From: Bacteroidota bacterium
GTDB taxonomy: Bacteria; Bacteroidota; Ignavibacteria; SZUA-365
Length of the DNA: 42,401 nt
NCBI GenBank assembly: GCA_003246455.1
Contig: QKAF01000103.1
Location: 1 to 42,401 of the forward strand
Reading direction: 5' to 3'
This document shows, one piece after another, positions 33,188-42,401 of this stretch. Below the pieces are notes generated by a model. That model saw nothing but the letters and a program-made list of their open reading frames with translations, was not told where the DNA came from and searched no databases. Both the position numbers and the translations under genes were made by a program. The stretch's first letter is position 1. Every line of letters begins with the position of its first letter.

Positions 33188-33661
33188 ATGGAAGACGACA
33201 TCCTTACACAGACCGAACACGAGCGCTGGATGGACCTCGCCCTGCGCCAGGCGGAACGCGCATACGAGGAAGGGGAAGTCCCGGTCGGCGCGATCGTCGT
33301 CAAGGACGGGAAGGTGATCGGCAAGGGATACAATCAGAACGAGCAGCTGAAGGATCCGACGGCCCACGCGGAGATCATCGCGATCACCGCGGCGGCAAAC
33401 GCCCTCGGCGACAAGCGTCTCGACGGCTGTACGCTCTACGTGACGCTCGAGCCTTGCGCGATGTGCGCGGGGGCGATCGTGCTCGCGCGCATCCCTGTTC
33501 TCGTCTTCGGCGCCTACGACGCGAAGGCCGGCGCGTGCGGCACGCTGATGAACATCGTCGAGGACCGGCGTCTCAATCATGCTGTGCATGTCATTCCCGG
33601 CGTGCGGGACGACAAGTCCACCGCGCTGCTGCGTTCGTTCTTCGGCTCCCTCCGAAACTGA
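33188..33661 (+). CDS. tadA: tRNA-specific adenosine deaminase
   Basis: TadA deaminates A34 to inosine in tRNA-Arg(ACG), allowing decoding of CGN codons. The 157-residue product shows the zinc-dependent cytidine-deaminase fold: HAEI (zinc histidine and proton-shuttle glutamate) and [14 protein letters not shown] (two zinc cysteines), with [17 protein letters not shown] as the leading strand. The length is normal. It is 45 bp after the lipoprotein gene and ends with a terminator, so it is probably the last gene of that run. The gene is normally essential. Confidence 0.95.
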
Positions 33662-33686
33662 TCCCGAAATCGGCACTGCATATGGA

Positions 33687-33709
33687 AAAGGCGCAACTCT
33701 TGCGCCTTT
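33687..33709 (+). terminator. Terminator after tadA
   Basis: AAAGGCGCAA (33687-33696) pairs with TTGCGCCTTT (33700-33709) across a CTC loop. The T-rich sequence CCTGCTGTTT follows. It also lies 53 bp before the next gene's ATG. Confidence 0.75.
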
Positions 33710-33761
33710 CCTGCTGTTTGGACATTATTCAGTGTCATTTTCTTCTACAACGCGACAACGC

Positions 33762-36700
33762 ATGCACCTCAAACGCGCACGCTTCCATTTTATCCTCACG
33801 GTGTTCCTGCTTCCGCTGCTCCTGACGCCTGCGCACGCACAGAGGATTGTCGACGGCGAATATCGATTCGGGACACTGGATCTCGAATCGGGGCTTTCGC
33901 AGGGAATGATATTCTGCATGCTGCAGGACAGCAAGGGCCTGATGTGGTTCGGAACCAAGGAGGGGCTGAACCGTTACGACGGGTACTCTTTCACCGTGTA
34001 CCGGAACATCCCCGGCGACTCCACGTCGCTTTCGGACAACCAGGTGTACAGCCTCGCCGAGGACGCCAGGGGCCGTCTGTGGATCGGAACGCGTACGCAG
34101 GGACTCGAGATGTTCGATCCGGTCACCGAACAGTTCACCCCGATCTACTCCGAACTGGACGGCCCGGAATCCCTCCTCGGCCTCGGGATACAGCATCTCG
34201 TGATCGACAGCCATGGCTACCTGTGGATCGGCGGCTGGCGCCAGCTGCTCGCGCGTGTCGATACCAGGAAGTCGAGCCCCGAGGACATTCGGCGTTCATG
34301 GAAGGGATACACCGAGGACCTGCGGTTTCTTTCCTCGAGTTCCTTCAAGATGATGCACGGTCCTTCCGGGGAAGTGGCCGTGCTCGGCGACAAGTCGATG
34401 TGGCGCTTCAACAGCAGAGCCGGAAGATTCGAGCGCATGCTTCACTGGCGCTCGATGGGCCTTCGGGTGGGAGAACCGGGAAATGAAATCGTCACCGCTT
34501 CCCTGGACCAGTTCGGCATACTGTGGCTCTCCCTGCAGCTCAGAGGACATTTCTCCCTGCTTCCTATCCGCCTTTCGACCGGCAAAATTCTCGATACGCT
34601 TCAATTCGAATATGGCGGCGCGGAACTCGTCTGCCGCGAAATGACGGTCGGACCCGACAGCATCATGTACGTTGCGGGATCCTACTATTTCATGCGGTAT
34701 GATCCCGGAACCAGAACGTATACCGTGACACCGCCGAGTCCCGACCAGACCGGCAGCCTTCGCGGCGGAGTATCCACGATGGTGTTCGACCGCAGCGGCA
34801 ACCTGTGGATCGGCACGACCGGTCTCGGCATCCATACCTTCAATCCACGCACGCTGGCCTTCCACGCGAGCGCGGTTCCGCTGAAGGAGTTCCTTTTCGG
34901 GAAGGCGCTCGCGGCGATGAAAAAACACCTCGCGGGCAGGTTCAAGCGCGAAGACAACTTCATGCAGGAAGCATATCCGATCCGTGCGCCGGACGGAGGC
35001 GTATGGTGCACGACACCGAACTTCGGACTTCTCCATTACGATCCGGTCACCGGGAAAGTCAGTCAGTTCGGCGTCAACCGCTACGACCCGTACAGCTTCC
35101 TGATGGTCCGGATCACGAGTCCGTTCATCGACAGCCGGGGCCGAATCTGGATCGGCAATTCGCAGGGGATCAGCCGCCTCGTCGACACCCCCGAGCAGTG
35201 GCAGCACTACTTCTTCGAGGAAGACGGACCGGACCCCCTGCGGCGCCAGGACAAGGTCACCTGCATTCATGAGGACACGGACGGGACGCTGTGGATGGGC
35301 ACCCTCAGCAGCGGGGTCGCACATTTCGATCCGTCAAGCGGCAGATTCACCCTGTTTCCCTATGACCTGAGCAACCGCTACAGTATCAGCGCGGACCATG
35401 TCCTGAGCATTGCGGCGGATCCCGAGCGCCCGGAGCGGTATCTGTGGATAGGTACCGACGGGGGAGGACTGAACCGCTTCGACAAGAAAGGCAGCAAATT
35501 CGAGCGCTTCGGACTGGCGGACGGGCTGCCCAATATGGTCATCTACGGGATTATCCCGGATTCATCAGGACAGCTGTGGATGAGTACGAACAACGGCATC
35601 AGCTGCCTGAAGCCGTCGACCATGCGCTTCACCAACTTCAATATCCGCGACGGACTCCAGGACAATGAATTCAACCGCAGGGAGTACTACCATATTCCGC
35701 CGCTGTTGTATTTCGGGGGTGTGAAGGGGCACAACAGCTTCAATCCCGTGGATATCAAACGGAACACCGCCGTTCCCGCGGTGGTCATCACCGGACTGCG
35801 CATTTTCAACCGCCCGCTGTCCACGGTCACCGACCATGATATCCTCCCGGCTTCGGTACCGTATACGAAGGCGATCACTCTGAATTACGATCAGAACATG
35901 CTGACGATCGAGTTCGCCGCGCTTGATTACACGGACCCGCACATGAACATGTACCGGTACCGCATGGAAGGTCTCGACAAGAAGTGGATCGAGGCAGGAA
36001 ACAGCCGATCGGCGACGTATACCTATCTCGATCCCGGCCAGTACACCTTCCGGGTACTCGGGAGCAACAACCACGGCGTGTGGAACGAGACGGGCGCCAC
36101 TCTGCGCATCACCATCCTCCCCCCGTGGTGGCGTACGGTCTGGGCGTACGTGATCTACGTCCTCGTCCTCGGATTGACGATCTTCCTTGTCGACCGCTCA
36201 CAGCGGCGCCGCGTCATCGCGCGTGAACGGGAGCGTGCGCAGACGCGCGAAGCGGAACTGCGCGCGGAGGCTGCGGAGTTCGAGGCGCGCGCGGTACGGG
36301 CGGAGAATGAAAGAAATGAGCAGGAACTGCGTGTCGCCGCGACGATACAGAAACGCATCATACCGCAGACCCTGCCGGAACTCCCGGGCTACGAAATCGC
36401 CGGCATCAACCTGCCTGCGCACGAAATCGGCGGCGACTACTACGACTGCATCCCCATCAGCGACGACCGCTACGCCCTCGTGATCGCGGACGTCACCGGG
36501 AAAGGGGTGCCTGCCTCGCTGCTCGTCAGCAGTCTTCATGCGTCACTGCTCGTGCATCTCGACAACGACCTGTCGCTGGAGGACCTGGCCCGCCGGCTCA
36601 ACGCGATGATGTACCGGACGACCACCCCGAGTTCCTTCGTCACATTCATCCTGGCCATCCTGCACCCGCCGAGCGGAACCATCGAAATGATCAACGCCGG

Positions 36701-37073
36701 GCACAATCCCGCGATCGTTCGAATGAGCGACGGCACGCTCGAGGTCATGGAAGAGCACGGACTTCCGCTCGGATGCAGCGTGGAGATCGTGCAGTACGTG
36801 CGCGAGGTCCGCGTGCTGATGCCGGGGGAAGGACTGCTGTTCTACACCGACGGCATACCGGAAGCGATGGACGACGCGCAGAATCCGTTCGGTCAGGAAG
36901 CGCTCGAGGCCTTCCTCGCCGACAGTAACGGAAACGACCCTGCCACGCTGATCACCGGGCTCGTCGACCGGCTCGCGTCGCACCGCGGCGCAGCGGAACA
37001 GAGCGACGACATCACCATGCTGTATATCAGGAGATCAGCCGATACGAACGGCGCTTCAGAGGAAACCGCCTGA
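33762..37073 (+). CDS. Two-component-type beta-propeller sensor fused to a SpoIIE (PP2C) phosphatase
   Basis: The 1103-residue protein starts with a signal peptide (about 1-26, ending AHAQ). The periplasmic part carries Reg_prop propeller repeats such as GLMWFGTKEGLNRYDG, GRLWIGTRTQGLEMFD, GYLWIGG, GNLWIGTTG and GQLWMSTNNG, giving about 14 blades in two propellers, then a Y_Y_Y domain near 690-780 (YRYRMEGLDKKWIEAG). A single membrane helix lies at about 789-812 with a coiled coil after it. The cytoplasmic SpoIIE domain, 850-1095, has the metal motifs GGDYYD (about 890), VIADVTGKG and QSDDIT. It would dephosphorylate an anti-anti-sigma-type partner, which is not nearby. The hybrid histidine kinase that usually follows this sensor is replaced here by a phosphatase. 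Confidence 0.92.
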   Translation: MHLKRARFHFILTVFLLPLLLTPAHAQRIVDGEYRFGTLDLESGLSQGMIFCMLQDSKGLMWFGTKEGLNRYDGYSFTVYRNIPGDSTSLSDNQVYSLAEDARGRLWIGTRTQGLEMFDPVTEQFTPIYSELDGPESLLGLGIQHLVIDSHGYLWIGGWRQLLARVDTRKSSPEDIRRSWKGYTEDLRFLSSSSFKMMHGPSGEVAVLGDKSMWRFNSRAGRFERMLHWRSMGLRVGEPGNEIVTASLDQFGILWLSLQLRGHFSLLPIRLSTGKILDTLQFEYGGAELVCREMTVGPDSIMYVAGSYYFMRYDPGTRTYTVTPPSPDQTGSLRGGVSTMVFDRSGNLWIGTTGLGIHTFNPRTLAFHASAVPLKEFLFGKALAAMKKHLAGRFKREDNFMQEAYPIRAPDGGVWCTTPNFGLLHYDPVTGKVSQFGVNRYDPYSFLMVRITSPFIDSRGRIWIGNSQGISRLVDTPEQWQHYFFEEDGPDPLRRQDKVTCIHEDTDGTLWMGTLSSGVAHFDPSSGRFTLFPYDLSNRYSISADHVLSIAADPERPERYLWIGTDGGGLNRFDKKGSKFERFGLADGLPNMVIYGIIPDSSGQLWMSTNNGISCLKPSTMRFTNFNIRDGLQDNEFNRREYYHIPPLLYFGGVKGHNSFNPVDIKRNTAVPAVVITGLRIFNRPLSTVTDHDILPASVPYTKAITLNYDQNMLTIEFAALDYTDPHMNMYRYRMEGLDKKWIEAGNSRSATYTYLDPGQYTFRVLGSNNHGVWNETGATLRITILPPWWRTVWAYVIYVLVLGLTIFLVDRSQRRRVIARERERAQTREAELRAEAAEFEARAVRAENERNEQELRVAATIQKRIIPQTLPELPGYEIAGINLPAHEIGGDYYDCIPISDDRYALVIADVTGKGVPASLLVSSLHASLLVHLDNDLSLEDLARRLNAMMYRTTTPSSFVTFILAILHPPSGTIEMINAGHNPAIVRMSDGTLEVMEEHGLPLGCSVEIVQYVREVRVLMPGEGLLFYTDGIPEAMDDAQNPFGQEALEAFLADSNGNDPATLITGLVDRLASHRGAAEQSDDITMLYIRRSADTNGASEETA

Positions 37074-37080
37074 TGCCGCT

Positions 37081-37109
37081 TTGCATTTGACGCATTTTCC
37101 GGTTAGGTT
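37081..37109 (+). promoter_or_regulatory. Candidate promoter for the B12-uptake unit
   Basis: TTGCAT (37081-37086) and TAGGTT (37104-37109) are 17 bp apart, the same -35 hexamer and spacing as the candidate promoter of the MerR gene at 8071. It would start transcription about 15 bp upstream of the riboswitch's first stem. The -10 match is poor, so this is tentative. Confidence 0.3.
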
Positions 37110-37130
37110 GAAAACAGTTCTTTGGAAACC

Positions 37131-37303
37131 GTCATGGTTCCCCCTCGAGGGGATGAAAACGGGAATGCCGTGGAAATCGGCAACTGCCCCGCAACTGTGA
37201 GCAGCGTAAAGCGTGCATGAATGCCACTGGAGAAATCCGGGAAGGTATGTACGCAGTTCGGCCTGAAACCGGACGCGCTGCGAGTCAGGAGACCTGCCAT
37301 GAC
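37131..37303 (+). ncRNA. Cobalamin (B12) riboswitch
   Basis: Conserved parts of the adenosylcobalamin aptamer occur in order: GGTTCCCC (37136-37143), GGGAATGCCGTGGAAATCGG (37161-37180), the CTGCCCCGCAACTGTGA segment, the B12-box-type GCCACTG at 37223-37229, and GAGTCAGGAGACCTGCC near 37282-37298. GTCATGG (37131-37137) pairs with CCATGAC (37297-37303), closing the outer stem. It lies upstream of a TonB receptor and a terminator, as for transport-controlling B12 riboswitches, so cobalamin should switch off the downstream genes. Confidence 0.95.
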
Positions 37304-37360
37304 ATCAGCACAGGCCTTCGCGGGTGAGGTTCCTGATGACGTGCGCGCCATCGCTCCCTT

Positions 37361-37390
37361 ACCCCCGCTGTCAACGACAGGGGGTTTTTT
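37361..37390 (+). terminator. Riboswitch expression platform: rho-independent terminator
   Basis: CCCC-C-G-CTGTC (37362-37372) pairs with GACAGGGGG-type bases (37376-37384) with a bulge, followed by six T residues (37385-37390). It lies 58 bp after the aptamer and 43 bp before the receptor start codon, the expected position for a transcription-terminating switch. Confidence 0.8.
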
Positions 37391-37432
37391 GTTCGCGTTT
37401 CCCCGCAGGGTCTGATAACGGATATCAAGCTC

Positions 37433-39400
37433 TTGCGGTATTTTATTTTCATACTCTTCGTCCTTCTGCCCGCCTTCACCGGAAGCGGACAGCGCCGCCT
37501 CGCCGAGGATGACACCCTGTTCTTCGCCCTGAAGGAAGAGGCGACGGTGACTGCGACCCGCATTCCGACCGCGCTGCGCGACGCGCCCGCGGCCACGGAC
37601 ATCTTCACCGCGCCGGCGATCACCGCGCTCCCCGCCCGAACGCTTTCCGACCTGCTCTCCCTCTCGGCCGGGAGCAGCGTCCGTGATTACGGCGGCAGCG
37701 GCAGCCTGCAGCTCGCCTCGCTGCGCGGACTCGGCGCCGAATACACACTCGTGCTCCTCAACGGCATGCGCCTCAACGGCGCGCAGAACGCCCTTGTCGA
37801 CGTGGGGCAATTCACGCTCGAATCCGCGGACCGCATCGAAATCGTCCGCGGCGGACTCGCCGCGCTCTACGGCAGCAACGCCCTCGGCGGCGTGGTCAAT
37901 ATCGTGACCGCACGCGAACGCGCTCCGCTGACCGCGTCCGTCGGCCTGGGTTCTTTCGGATGGAAGCGCATATCCCTGGCCGTCGGCGACGGCGGCAGCA
38001 GCGGGCGCATCTTCGCCGACGCCCGCTATGAAGAAAGTGACAACGATTACTCCTTCACCCCTTCGTGGGGCGGTGACGATATCCTGCGCATGAACGCGGC
38101 GATGTACCGCCGTTCCGTCAGCGCGGGCGGCACCCTGTTTCTGCCCGACGCCAGCCTGACTCTGTTCGCGGACCTCCTCTCCCTCGATGTCGGTGTTCCG
38201 GGCGCGGTGTTTTCCGCGGCACAGGGACATGCGCGGCAAAAGGATCTGCAGGGGATGTTCTCGCTTCAGCTCGACGCACAGCTTGCCACACGCCGCCAGC
38301 TCCGCGCCGCGCTCGGTGTGCGTGGCGGACGGCAGGAGTACCGTGATCCGGACTACTCCATCAACGGCACGCCGCTCGCGAGCAGATACGATCAGTCGCA
38401 GGTCTTCGCCAATGCCCTGCTCGAACAGGAGTTCGCGACGGGGCATCGCGTTCTCGGTGGCCTGGAAGCATCCTTCGATCAGCTGCAGAGCGCCGATGTC
38501 CGTTCCCGTCCCCGACGGGTCCAGGTCGCCGCGTTCACATCCGCAGACTTCCGTTTCCATCCCTGGGGGCTGCCCCTGCGGCTGTATCCCGCGCTGCGGT
38601 ACGATCTGATCTCGGATGCGGAGCCGGCGAATGACGCGGGAACCGGCGTCCCCGCAGGGACGGATCTCCACGCGTTCATGCCGTCGCTCGGACTTCATGC
38701 CGGTCTGCTGCCGGGCATTCTCGCACTGCGCGGGCGCATCGCCCGTGCGTTCAGCATGCCGACCTTCAACCAGCTGTACTGGCGCGAAGGCGGAAACGCG
38801 GCGCTGAAGCCGGAATACTCCACCGCGTTCGATGCCGGAATCGTGTATACCGCCGGCGGCGGCGTTTCAACCGCGGAACTGACCTGGTTTCACCACGACA
38901 TCACCGACAAGATCGTCTGGGCGCCTTCCTCCGGCCTGTACTGGACGCCGCGGAACGTACAGCACGTGCTATCCACCGGCATCGAGGCATCGTGGCAGCT
39001 GCAGTGGGATCGATTCTCGATGCGGATGAACGGGCAGTGGATGTCCGCCCGCAAGGCCAACGCATCCTTCCCCGGCGACGCGACGCAGGACAAGCGGCTG
39101 ATCTACGTCCCGGAATGGAGCGGCTCCGTCAGCCTTCTCGCCGCACCCGCCGAATGGCTCACCGTGTCGCTGACCGAACGCGTGCTCGGCCCGCGCTTCT
39201 ACAACGAAATCAATACCGCCGAACTGCCCGCGCACGCGATTACCGACGCGGCTCTGCGGCTGTCGCTCCCGCTCGCCGGGGTACGGACGGTCTGGAAACT
39301 GGAAGTGCTCAATCTGCTCGGGGAGGAATACGAAGTCATCGCGTTTTACCCCATGCCCGGGCGGAGCTGGCGGTTCACACTTTCAACTGCCCTGGAATGA
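37433..39400 (+). CDS. btuB: TonB-dependent outer membrane receptor, BtuB-like
   Basis: The 655-residue product is under a B12 riboswitch, so the substrate is most likely cobalamin or a related corrinoid. The start is TTG at 37433, because no in-frame ATG exists near the signal peptide (RYFIFILFVLLPAFTGSGQ) and the TTG directly opens it. EEATVTATR at about 35-43 is the TonB box. The plug domain follows with TLSDLLSLSAG, SLRGLGAEYTLVLLNGMRLNG, RIEIVRGGLAALYGSNALGGVVNIV (to about 160). The C-terminal barrel ends FTLSTALE. The lipoprotein gene after it is 64 bp away and probably part of the same unit. Confidence 0.88.
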   Translation: MRYFIFILFVLLPAFTGSGQRRLAEDDTLFFALKEEATVTATRIPTALRDAPAATDIFTAPAITALPARTLSDLLSLSAGSSVRDYGGSGSLQLASLRGLGAEYTLVLLNGMRLNGAQNALVDVGQFTLESADRIEIVRGGLAALYGSNALGGVVNIVTARERAPLTASVGLGSFGWKRISLAVGDGGSSGRIFADARYEESDNDYSFTPSWGGDDILRMNAAMYRRSVSAGGTLFLPDASLTLFADLLSLDVGVPGAVFSAAQGHARQKDLQGMFSLQLDAQLATRRQLRAALGVRGGRQEYRDPDYSINGTPLASRYDQSQVFANALLEQEFATGHRVLGGLEASFDQLQSADVRSRPRRVQVAAFTSADFRFHPWGLPLRLYPALRYDLISDAEPANDAGTGVPAGTDLHAFMPSLGLHAGLLPGILALRGRIARAFSMPTFNQLYWREGGNAALKPEYSTAFDAGIVYTAGGGVSTAELTWFHHDITDKIVWAPSSGLYWTPRNVQHVLSTGIEASWQLQWDRFSMRMNGQWMSARKANASFPGDATQDKRLIYVPEWSGSVSLLAAPAEWLTVSLTERVLGPRFYNEINTAELPAHAITDAALRLSLPLAGVRTVWKLEVLNLLGEEYEVIAFYPMPGRSWRFTLSTALE

Positions 39401-39464
39401 CCTGACGCGGGCCGTCACAGCCAACTACATGAACAGTTCACCACTCATCCATAACGGGATTTCC

Positions 39465-40508
39465 ATGAATCGATTTTTCCTGGCCGCACTCGGCCTCATG
39501 CTCATGCTCTCCGCCTGTTCCGAGGATAACGGAACGAATCCCCCGATCACGCCCCAGGCACCGCGGGGACTGTACATCCTCAACGAGGGAAACTTCCAGC
39601 GCGGGAATGCCTCGCTGAGCCTGTACATACCGGATTCGAATGTCGTTCTCAACGACCTCTTCATGTCCGTCAACGGCCGTCCCCTCGGCGACGTGGGTAA
39701 CAGCATCACCGTGCGCGACGGTCTGGCATACCTGGTGATCAATAATTCCCACAAGATCGAAGTCATCGACGTCGAAACGCACAAGAGCGTGCGGACGATC
39801 TCGAGCCCGGCGGGCGCGAGTCCGCGGCAGATCGCCTTCGCGGCGAACGGGCTCGGGTTCATCTCGAACCTGCTCGATAACAGCGTTTCGGTGTACAATC
39901 CCGCCACGGGCGCGCTCGAGGGAAAAATCGCGGTCGGCGGCAACCCCGACGGCATCGCGGCCGCCGGCAGCATGGTCGTGACCGCCAACAGCGGCTTCGG
40001 CAGCGGCAACACCGTCTCGCTTATCGATGCCGATACGCGGGCGGTGGTCAAGACCCTGACCGTCGGCGATTACCCGACCAGCGTGCTCGCGCTCAGCGAC
40101 TACGCCGCCGCGGTGATCTGCACCGGCGATTACGGCGACTTCAACGATCCGAACGACGACACGCCGGGCATGCTGTACGTCATCGATCTGCAGATGCGCC
40201 GCGTCGCGGATTCCCTCGAACTGGGCGGACACCCGCAGCGCCTGGTGCGCGACTCGGACGGCCATCTGTACACGATCCAGGCCGACGGCGTCACCCGCAT
40301 CCACCTCGCGTCGAAAACCGTGACGAACACGTTCATCCCCGGTTTCTACTACAACATTCTGGTGGACACGGCGGACCGGAAACTGTATCTCACGAATCCC
40401 ATCGATTATGTCCAGGCGGGGAAACTCGAGATCTACGGGCTGACGGGCGACAGGGAGCGCGCGCTCGACGTCGGGATCATTCCCGGAGCGATGGCGATGA
40501 CGAAATAG
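39465..40508 (+). CDS. Beta-propeller lipoprotein (YncE-like), candidate BtuG-type cobalamin-binding partner
   Basis: The 347-residue product has a lipoprotein signal (LMLMLSAC, lipidated cysteine near residue 18, then SEDNGTNPP). The body is a seven-bladed propeller of the YncE/DUF5074 type: GLYILNEGNFQ, NSHKIEVIDVETHKSVRTI, LDNSVSVYNPATGALEGKI, GNTVSLIDADTRAVVKTL, and the last blades ADGVTRIHLASKTVTNTF and KLYLTNPIDY. The gene follows the riboswitch-controlled receptor. In Bacteroides the surface propeller lipoprotein BtuG binds B12 with the receptor BtuB; the position and the fold match here, but cobalamin binding is inference. ATG 39465 starts the signal peptide; the in-frame ATG at 39429 would lengthen it without improvement. 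A terminator follows. Confidence 0.82.
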   Translation: MNRFFLAALGLMLMLSACSEDNGTNPPITPQAPRGLYILNEGNFQRGNASLSLYIPDSNVVLNDLFMSVNGRPLGDVGNSITVRDGLAYLVINNSHKIEVIDVETHKSVRTISSPAGASPRQIAFAANGLGFISNLLDNSVSVYNPATGALEGKIAVGGNPDGIAAAGSMVVTANSGFGSGNTVSLIDADTRAVVKTLTVGDYPTSVLALSDYAAAVICTGDYGDFNDPNDDTPGMLYVIDLQMRRVADSLELGGHPQRLVRDSDGHLYTIQADGVTRIHLASKTVTNTFIPGFYYNILVDTADRKLYLTNPIDYVQAGKLEIYGLTGDRERALDVGIIPGAMAMTK

Positions 40509-40554
40509 TCGGCAGGGTCACGCGGGGATTGCTTCCCGTCGCGAACGAACACCG

Positions 40555-40584
40555 CGCTCCCTCGTCTTCCGGGGGAGCGTTTTT
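40555..40584 (+). terminator. Terminator after the propeller lipoprotein gene
   Basis: CGCTCCC (40555-40561) pairs with GGGAGCG (40573-40579) across an 11-base loop, followed by five T residues (40580-40584). It ends two bases before the stop codon of the convergent penicillin-binding protein gene. Confidence 0.8.
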
Positions 40585-40585
40585 A

Positions 40586-42401
40586 TTACCATCCGAAGAG
40601 CCAGCCGCCGTGTTCGTCGCATTCGACGGGCAGCAGGTTGAGATTGACGGGGTAGAGGGCGACATCGGGACAGGACTCGGTGGCGAGCAGACCGGTTTCC
40701 CGGCAGAGCGGACGAAATTCGACGCTCGCGGGCTGCAGGAACGCGGAGTCGGGGGGCGCGAAACGGGCAATCCGCGCCATCGTGCGTCCCCAGATCGGGG
40801 CACACATCGTCCCTCCATACCGGTACACCCCGCCGAGCTTTCTCGCGGCGTTGTCGAAGCCCACCCACACGGCGAGCGACAGCGACGGCGTGAATCCGAC
40901 GAACCACGCGTCGGTGGAGTTCTGTGTCGTCCCGGTTTTCCCTGCCGCCGGACCCGCGTAGTACTTCCGCACCGCGGTCGCGGTCCCGCTGTCCACCACG
41001 GCCCGCATGGCATCGGTGATGATGAAGGCGGTCGCCGAATCGAGCACGGTCAGGGTGTCGGGACGTGCGCGGAAAAGGACGCGCCTGTTCTGATCTTCGA
41101 TCCGGGTGATGAAGAAGGGACGCGCGCGGTGTCCCATGGCCGCCAGGGTGCCGTACCCGGTCACCATGTCGAGCGGAGACACCTCCCCGGTGCCGAGCGC
41201 GAGCGAGGGATACTCCGGAAGCTCGCTTTCGACGCCGAGACGATGGGCGAATGCGATCACCCGCGAGGGTTCCGTCATCTCCACCATGGCATGCGCGGCA
41301 ACGAGATTCAGCGAATGCTGGAGGCCGTAACGCATCGGGACAGCGGCACCGCTGCTCGTATCGGAGTCGTTCATCGGACGCCATTCCCAGGCCATGCCCG
41401 AGTCGACGACGATCGGCGCGTCGAGTATCGGCGTCGCGAGTGTATATCCCTGTTCGAGCAGCGATGCGTAAAGGAACGGCTTGAACGACGACCCCGGCTG
41501 GCGATGGATCTGCGTCGCGTGATTGAGTCCGCGGCCGGGAGACGACGGATTGCCGCCGATCAGGCCGCGCACGGCGCCGCTGCGGGGGTCAGTGAGCACG
41601 GCGCCGACCTGCACCTCGCGCATTTTCTCCGGCAGGTCCTTCCACTGCGTTTCCACGGCCTCTTCCAGCGCGGTCTGCATGCGACTGTCGAGCGTGGTGT
41701 AAATCCGAAGCTGGTCGTGCGGGAGCGATAGACCCTTCGCGGAAAGCAGCGCCTCCGCCTCGCGCCGCACCCACTCCGCGTAATGCCGCGCAATCGCAGG
41801 ACGCGGGTTCAGGCCGAGGTTCTGACGGCGGTAGCGCTGGAACTCATTCTTGCTGATGCGTCCGACCTCGACGAGATTGTGCATGACCTCGTTCCGCCGG
41901 CGGAGCGCGCGGTCGGGATGTTTGAGCGGGTTGTAGTTTTCCGGGGACTGGAGCAGTCCGACGAGCATGCAGCTCTCGGCAACCGACAGTTCCGCGGGAT
42001 CTTTCTGAAAATACTCCCGCGCCGCGGCCCACACGCCGTAGGTGCCGCCGCCGAAGTAGACGGTGTTGAGATAGAGCAGCAGGAGCTCGTCCTTGCTGAA
42101 TTTCTTTTCGAGTTCACGCGCAAGATCGATTTCCTTCAGTTTGCGCGAGAGGGAACGTTCGTGCGACAGAAAGAGGTTGCGTGCCAGCTGCATCGTCAGC
42201 GTGCTGCCACCCTGCGTATTGCCGGTTATGGTTTCCAGCACGGCGCGTCCGAGTCCCTTCAGGGATACGCCGTCATGGTTGTAGAAATCGCGATCCTCCG
42301 TCGCAAGCAGCGCGCGGATCACCCAGGGCGAAACCGCGCCGGTCGACCGGAGCTCCACCCTCCGTTCCGACCCGAAGTAGTCGAGCACCTTGCCATCCTC
42401 C
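40586..42401 (-). CDS. Class A penicillin-binding protein (bifunctional PBP1A-type), 5' end missing
   Basis: The N-terminus lies beyond the window's right edge; 605 codons are visible. The glycosyltransferase domain GT51 covers the first 180 or so residues: ATEDRDFYNHDGVS with the catalytic glutamate, GGSTLTMQLARNLFL, RKLKEIDLARELEKKFSKDE and YLNTVYFGGGTYGV. The transpeptidase domain follows, with SSFK (PGSSFKPFLYASL), HSLN (third position N) and KTGTT as the three catalytic motifs, so both activities look intact. It polymerises and cross-links peptidoglycan in the periplasm. A PBP1A-type OB insert is not evident. The missing end would contain the cytoplasmic tail and membrane anchor. The gene converges on the B12 lipoprotein gene. 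Confidence 0.95.
   Translation of the reverse strand, partial: EDGKVLDYFGSERRVELRSTGAVSPWVIRALLATEDRDFYNHDGVSLKGLGRAVLETITGNTQGGSTLTMQLARNLFLSHERSLSRKLKEIDLARELEKKFSKDELLLLYLNTVYFGGGTYGVWAAAREYFQKDPAELSVAESCMLVGLLQSPENYNPLKHPDRALRRRNEVMHNLVEVGRISKNEFQRYRRQNLGLNPRPAIARHYAEWVRREAEALLSAKGLSLPHDQLRIYTTLDSRMQTALEEAVETQWKDLPEKMREVQVGAVLTDPRSGAVRGLIGGNPSSPGRGLNHATQIHRQPGSSFKPFLYASLLEQGYTLATPILDAPIVVDSGMAWEWRPMNDSDTSSGAAVPMRYGLQHSLNLVAAHAMVEMTEPSRVIAFAHRLGVESELPEYPSLALGTGEVSPLDMVTGYGTLAAMGHRARPFFITRIEDQNRRVLFRARPDTLTVLDSATAFIITDAMRAVVDSGTATAVRKYYAGPAAGKTGTTQNSTDAWFVGFTPSLSLAVWVGFDNAARKLGGVYRYGGTMCAPIWGRTMARIARFAPPDSAFLQPASVEFRPLCRETGLLATESCPDVALYPVNLNLLPVECDEHGGWLFGW

Follow-up and report, generated by a model that had tools for sequence, protein, structure and literature searches.

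A putative riboswitch-controlled BtuB-BtuG operon for cobamide uptake in an uncultured relative of Ignavibacteria and Kryptonia

In Bacteroides thetaiotaomicron, the surface lipoprotein BtuG captures vitamin B12 and forms a lid on the TonB-dependent receptor BtuB. In the window, i.e., the whole 42,401-nucleotide stretch of contig QKAF01000103.1 analysed here, a cobalamin aptamer, a terminator, a TonB-dependent receptor gene and a gene for a lipidated propeller protein are consecutive on the + strand, all four elements being present as the initial annotation had described. The locus thus raises the question of whether a lid-assisted uptake system operates in a bacterium that is not a gut Bacteroides, and how far such a system reaches. 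We consider it very likely that the locus is a cobamide uptake operon of two genes under riboswitch control, of the same kind as BtuB-BtuG in Bacteroides. Its elements are as follows.

37118-37315, + strand: cobalamin riboswitch aptamer (RF00174; full-length cmscan match, 1-189 of 189)
37362-37390, + strand: intrinsic terminator of the riboswitch, CCCCCGCTGTC-AAC-GACAGGGGG followed by T6 (sequence, pattern scan and covariation)
37433-39400, + strand: btuB-like TonB-dependent receptor gene (655 amino acids, TTG start; Pfam plug and barrel)
39465-40508, + strand: btuG-like propeller lipoprotein gene (347 amino acids; lipobox LSAC with Cys18, then SEDN)

Homology of the lipoprotein and the receptor

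The lipoprotein matches PF16819 (DUF5074) with 45.5 bits against a cut-off of 27.2, and its lipobox LSAC with Cys18 is followed by the sequence pattern of an acidic SEDN export signal. Among proteins of known structure, BtuG3 (8p97_B) was matched with an E-value of 1.2e-35, and the values for BtuG2, BtuG3 and a B. uniformis homologue (3dsm) span 1e-35 to 5e-34. BtuG1 followed with 5e-18, about the same as the 2.5e-18 of the archaeal propeller 1l0q, and E. coli YncE reached only 0.04. The AlphaFold2 (AF2) model of the lipoprotein has a mean predicted local distance difference test score (pLDDT) of 90.9. With this model, Foldseek placed BtuG chains at ranks 1-16 (E 1e-26 to 1e-21) and the next propeller that is not a BtuG at 3e-16, weaker by five orders of magnitude. 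In the VIA comparison, BtuG1-3 gave Z-scores of 36.8-40.0 with a root-mean-square deviation of 2.0-2.4 over 305-309 residues, followed by 1l0q with 34.4 and by YncE with 28.4. As BtuG2 and BtuG3 come first by sequence and BtuG1-3 by structure, with YncE far behind, the lipoprotein is, judged by sequence and model, a true homologue of BtuG and not an equivalent of YncE. The initial annotation had called the propeller YncE-type and perhaps a diverged functional equivalent; this part of it has to be revised. A YncE-type analogue was considered and rejected; the YncE equivalog NF052280 gave 23.8 bits against a cut-off of 400. E. coli YncE (3vgz) shares the seven-bladed propeller fold with the lipoprotein and is far weaker in both kinds of comparison, and BtuK1 (9s6c), a propeller annotated as B12-binding, lies well under BtuG1-3 (E 0.002, Z 29.3).

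The receptor matches the Pfam plug (1.4e-22) and barrel (2e-35) families. Its best PDB match by sequence is 8blw_A, the BtuB1 of BtuB1G1 (E 4.5e-38), and the next are 8p98, 8bmx and 8p97 (BtuB2/3) at about 1e-27. The match to E. coli BtuB (E 5e-21) is confined to the plug region. An AF2 model (pLDDT 85.9) again retrieved 8blw_A at rank 1 of Foldseek (E 3.4e-39), with BtuB1-3 at ranks 1-3 and E. coli BtuB (1nqe and others) close behind; the latter has the same TonB-dependent B12 receptor fold but functions without a BtuG lid. By its best homology to BtuB1-3, the receptor is predicted to be a Bacteroidota-type BtuB, the partner class of BtuG.

The closest known systems are therefore BtuB1G1, BtuB2G2 and BtuB3G3 of B. 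thetaiotaomicron (8blw, 8bmx, 8p97, 8p98; PMC10404256, PMC6143338), in which both window proteins find their best matches and which likewise have a cobalamin riboswitch, adjoining btuB and btuG genes and a seven-bladed lipidated propeller, whose corrinoid-holding loop has a counterpart in the window lipoprotein. The window differs from them in that its BtuG has about 30% identity, its operon holds btuB and btuG only, and its host, uncultured and related to Ignavibacteria and Kryptonia, is not a gut Bacteroides.

Conservation of the gene pair in relatives

A lipoprotein match was found in 35 of 60 relatives at a threshold of 1e-10, and within the genus, family and order of the window btuB lies directly upstream of btuG at the matched loci. 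A cobalamin riboswitch precedes 17 of 19 loci of relatives, all riboswitch counts resting on Rfam matches only; at one locus (L051) 3.4 kb separate it from btuB, and the two loci without a call (L034 and L049) start too near a contig end to tell. We also scanned the genomes of 84,980 species with patterns for BtuG alone, derived from a 12-row alignment (A3), which yielded 405 relatives, and the best 80 were kept. The titles among these best 80 of 405 name Bacteroidetes/Bacteroidota, Ignavibacteria, Kryptonia, Calditrichota, Balneolales, Chlorobi and one 'Ectothiorhodospiraceae' metagenome-assembled genome (MAG). In this set, BtuB adjoins BtuG in 66 of the 75 loci with 1.5 kb of upstream sequence according to our script, and inspection added L113 as the 67th. 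The riboswitch was found upstream in all nine Calditrichota loci having btuB and in both Balneolota loci tested. The order riboswitch-btuB-btuG recurs in the genus, family, order and class of the window and in Calditrichota, Kryptonia and Balneolota. Gene order thus shows the pairing with the receptor to be conserved, whose absence from relatives was one of the two conditions that, taken together, the initial annotation had named as refuting its proposal, and the BtuB-BtuG type B12 uptake unit it described is supported by this pairing together with the homology of both proteins.

The conserved pairing bears on a rival explanation, namely that a generic YVTN/YncE-type propeller has come to lie by chance behind a B12 receptor and has no contact with corrinoids. 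The lipoprotein does match TIGR02276 (64 bits) and, marginally, PF21783 YNCE (27.6 bits against a cut-off of 27.1), and by sequence alone the archaeal propeller ties with BtuG1. However, BtuG2 and BtuG3 are ahead by 16 orders of magnitude in sequence, BtuG1-3 lead in structure, the comparisons with the YncE equivalog and E. coli YncE speak against it, and the pairing with the receptor and the riboswitch is conserved over several phyla, so that we hold this explanation to be very improbable. Chance neighbourhood of the two genes was considered and rejected.

Some loci in the collection deserve separate mention. The 'Ectothiorhodospiraceae' (Gammaproteobacteria) MAG contig L072 encodes a BtuG that is 100% identical to that of G012, a genome of the window's own order, and the record is probably mistitled. 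In a Thermochlorobacteriaceae locus (L125:5579-7074), a cobalamin riboswitch immediately precedes btuG, and no btuB was found alongside; the receptor for this lipoprotein may be encoded at another site. For a Bacteroidales clade of BtuG homologues (L126, L134, L137 and L147), some of them from herbivore gut samples by title, no BtuB was found in the fetched flanks, unlike for nearly all others.

The leader, the corrinoid-contact residues and the proposed mechanism

With 107.1 bits in cmscan (E 5e-26), the aptamer exceeds the gathering score of 31.5, and no second RF00174 match was found in the assembly (4.1 Mb, 98% complete). The btuB-btuG operon is thus the genome's only riboswitch-marked cobamide entry. 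The expression platform was analyzed with an alignment (A4) of 10 leader sequences from the window and nine relatives. In the terminator stem, two-sided changes occur at 3 pairs and 87.5% of the cells are paired, as compared with 28-53% in slid controls, in which the partner was moved by 1-3 columns. A competing pairing and the loop discussed below are located as follows.

37322-37364, + strand: candidate antiterminator, GGGTGAGG (37322-37329) with CCTTACCC (37357-37364), from the minimum free energy (MFE) fold
39582-39614, + strand: codons of NEGNFQRGNAS (BtuG residues 40-50), the counterpart of the BtuG2 loop Asn54-Thr64, from alignments

The 3' arm of the candidate antiterminator overlaps the 5' arm of the terminator stem, and its 5' arm is invariant in the 10 sequences. 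The leader's fold energy was no better than that of shuffled sequences (MFE fold z -0.34) and is not counted here in favour of the fold. The segment GCCTTCGYGGGTGAGG (37314-37329), directly 3' of the aptamer, is invariant in all ten sequences although the Rfam model covers hardly any of it; the segment may contribute to the switch, as an antiterminator or through a loop contact.

In BtuG2, the loop Asn54-Thr64 and a loop of blade 5 grip the ligand like pliers (PMC10404256). The former reads NEGNFQYSNAT in BtuG2 (chain 8bmx_D) and NEGNFQRGNAS in the window lipoprotein. Among 82 homologues, variation is rare or absent at the positions of Asn54, Gly56 and Asn62 (conserved in 79, 82 and 77, respectively). 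Tyr316 and Tyr335 of BtuG2 have Tyr296 and Tyr315 as counterparts.

Based on these features, the following mechanism can be proposed. At low cellular cobalamin, the 5' leader would fold without the terminator and btuB and btuG would be transcribed, while binding of cobalamin to the aptamer would allow the terminator to form and stop transcription, the direction of the switch being assumed from other riboswitches of the RF00174 family. BtuG would be exported, lipidated on Cys18 and placed at the cell surface so as to cover the BtuB barrel like a lid; its propeller would capture cobamides in the central cavity and pass them to BtuB for import with TonB energy. For corrinoid binding, surface exposure and lid formation, the proposal follows the work on B. 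thetaiotaomicron.

The genome encodes the B12-dependent enzymes methylmalonyl-CoA mutase (MCM) and IcmF and one like MetH, together with CarH-like regulators, a BtuC-like permease and an adenosyltransferase of the PduO type, while CbiC, CbiG_N and CobS had no match in the 98% complete draft. Taken together, this gene content suggests that the bacterium probably depends on imported, complete cobamides. Import of cobinamide or another corrinoid precursor by the pair is an alternative to which we give very little weight. BtuG2 does bind cobinamide and probably many corrinoids (PMC10404256), and the ligand range can therefore not be read from sequence; on the other hand, CobS had no match in the genome, so that the usual nucleotide-loop route would not be available for completing cobinamide, and the leader is a cobalamin riboswitch.

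Several points weigh against a cobamide uptake operon of the BtuB-BtuG kind or against details of its proposed working. The receptor reaches 152.7 bits against a cut-off of 599.7 for the enterobacterial BtuB equivalog TIGR01779, to which it is therefore not assigned. The aromatic residues Trp194 and Trp272, which narrow the cavity of BtuG2, are not conserved in the window lipoprotein, which has Ser176 or the nearby Phe178 at the first position, where the alignment is uncertain, and His256 at the second. The candidate antiterminator has 89.6% of its cells paired in the 10 sequences, yet without two-sided (compensatory) changes, which leaves it plausible and unproved. The AF2 models represent single chains, and corrinoid binding and the lid are proposed by analogy with B. 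thetaiotaomicron. Finally, the correlation between the patristic distances of BtuB and BtuG (r 0.858; 0/999 permutations) counts in favour of the pair, yet two adjoining genes that are merely inherited together would give it as well.

Further features of the locus are listed below.

33579-37073, + strand: sensor/phosphatase gene upstream of the operon (1164 amino acids; Reg_prop, i.e., sensor propeller repeats, Y_Y_Y and SpoIIE-type phosphatase domains)
40554-40580, + strand: terminator-like hairpin 3' of btuG (11 pairs, 8 of them G-C, then TTTTT)
40586-42388, opposite (-) strand: long open frame downstream, penicillin-binding-protein-like by eye (open reading frame list)

The sensor/phosphatase gene seems unrelated to B12, and the operon probably ends at the hairpin. 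In the window, btuB starts with TTG; the nearest relative has an ATG two codons further upstream, at a position that reads AAG here (37424-37435). For the lipoprotein, ATG 39465 appears to be a better start than 39429, because the resulting N-terminus, MNRFFLAALGLMLMLSAC-SEDN, has the form of a normal signal peptide with a lipobox.

Distribution and descent

Published work restricts such systems to Bacteroidetes: BtuG homologues were described as exclusive to this group after 313 human gut strains had been surveyed (PMC6143338), and the capping of TonB receptors by lipoproteins seems, according to PMC10404256, to occur there alone. Gut crowding is the explanation to which this work turns. No paper naming BtuG together with Ignavibacter- or Calditrich- was found in our search, which did not extend to subscription papers and preprints, so an unseen report may exist. 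Within the window's phylum, the lipoprotein family was matched at 1e-20 in 62 of 148 evenly drawn genomes and is therefore common and not universal. Beyond these phyla, coverage consisted of controls, plasmids and the pattern scan and was not an even survey. On plasmids, full-length matches were found only in Bacteroidota genera, with partial propeller matches elsewhere, and the viral contigs scanned for the lipoprotein gave no match. The operon's presence in Calditrichota, Kryptonia, Ignavibacteria and Balneola lines agrees with the suggestion, made in the initial annotation, of a system wider than gut Bacteroides.

How this range arose can be approached through the trees, both unrooted. In the BtuG tree, Calditrichota form one clade (support 98) apart from the main Bacteroidia group, which contains BtuG3, and they also form one clade in the BtuB tree (100). 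The nearest relatives of the window are MAGs titled 'Bacteroidetes bacterium' and 'Ignavibacteria bacterium', and its class includes Kryptonia-like genomes, one of which (L043) has a BtuG 81% identical to that of Candidatus Kryptonium; the host is thus most likely from a branch of Bacteroidota, broadly defined, outside Bacteroidia. The trees are compatible with an early origin of lid-assisted B12 import, before Bacteroidota and Calditrichota, along with the lines of Kryptonia, Ignavibacteria and Balneola, had diverged from their common ancestor; the system would then not have been born of gut competition, and lipoprotein-capped TonB receptors would not be exclusive to Bacteroidetes. We regard the evidence for this early origin as about evenly balanced. 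Horizontal transfer among these phyla would account for the wide range in another way, leaving the function of the operon unchanged, and is a conceivable but rather unlikely source of it. The tree intermixes Ignavibacteriota and Bacteroidota labels and places Chlorobi-type sequences with Sphingobacteriaceae, as transfer would predict. However, much of the label mixing stems from MAGs titled only 'Bacteroidetes', and Calditrichota, one clade for each protein, are not nested in the main Bacteroidia group. The trees, being unrooted, would also accommodate an old transfer.

The mechanism proposed here is an ordinary one of the known BtuBG kind, and the worthwhile part of the finding is its range beyond gut Bacteroides, into Calditrichota. 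The diverged BtuBG versions offer material for structural work on the lid mechanism. With the riboswitch-btuB-btuG order present in Calditrichota, Kryptonia, Ignavibacteria and Balneola lines, gut crowding is insufficient as an explanation of the system.

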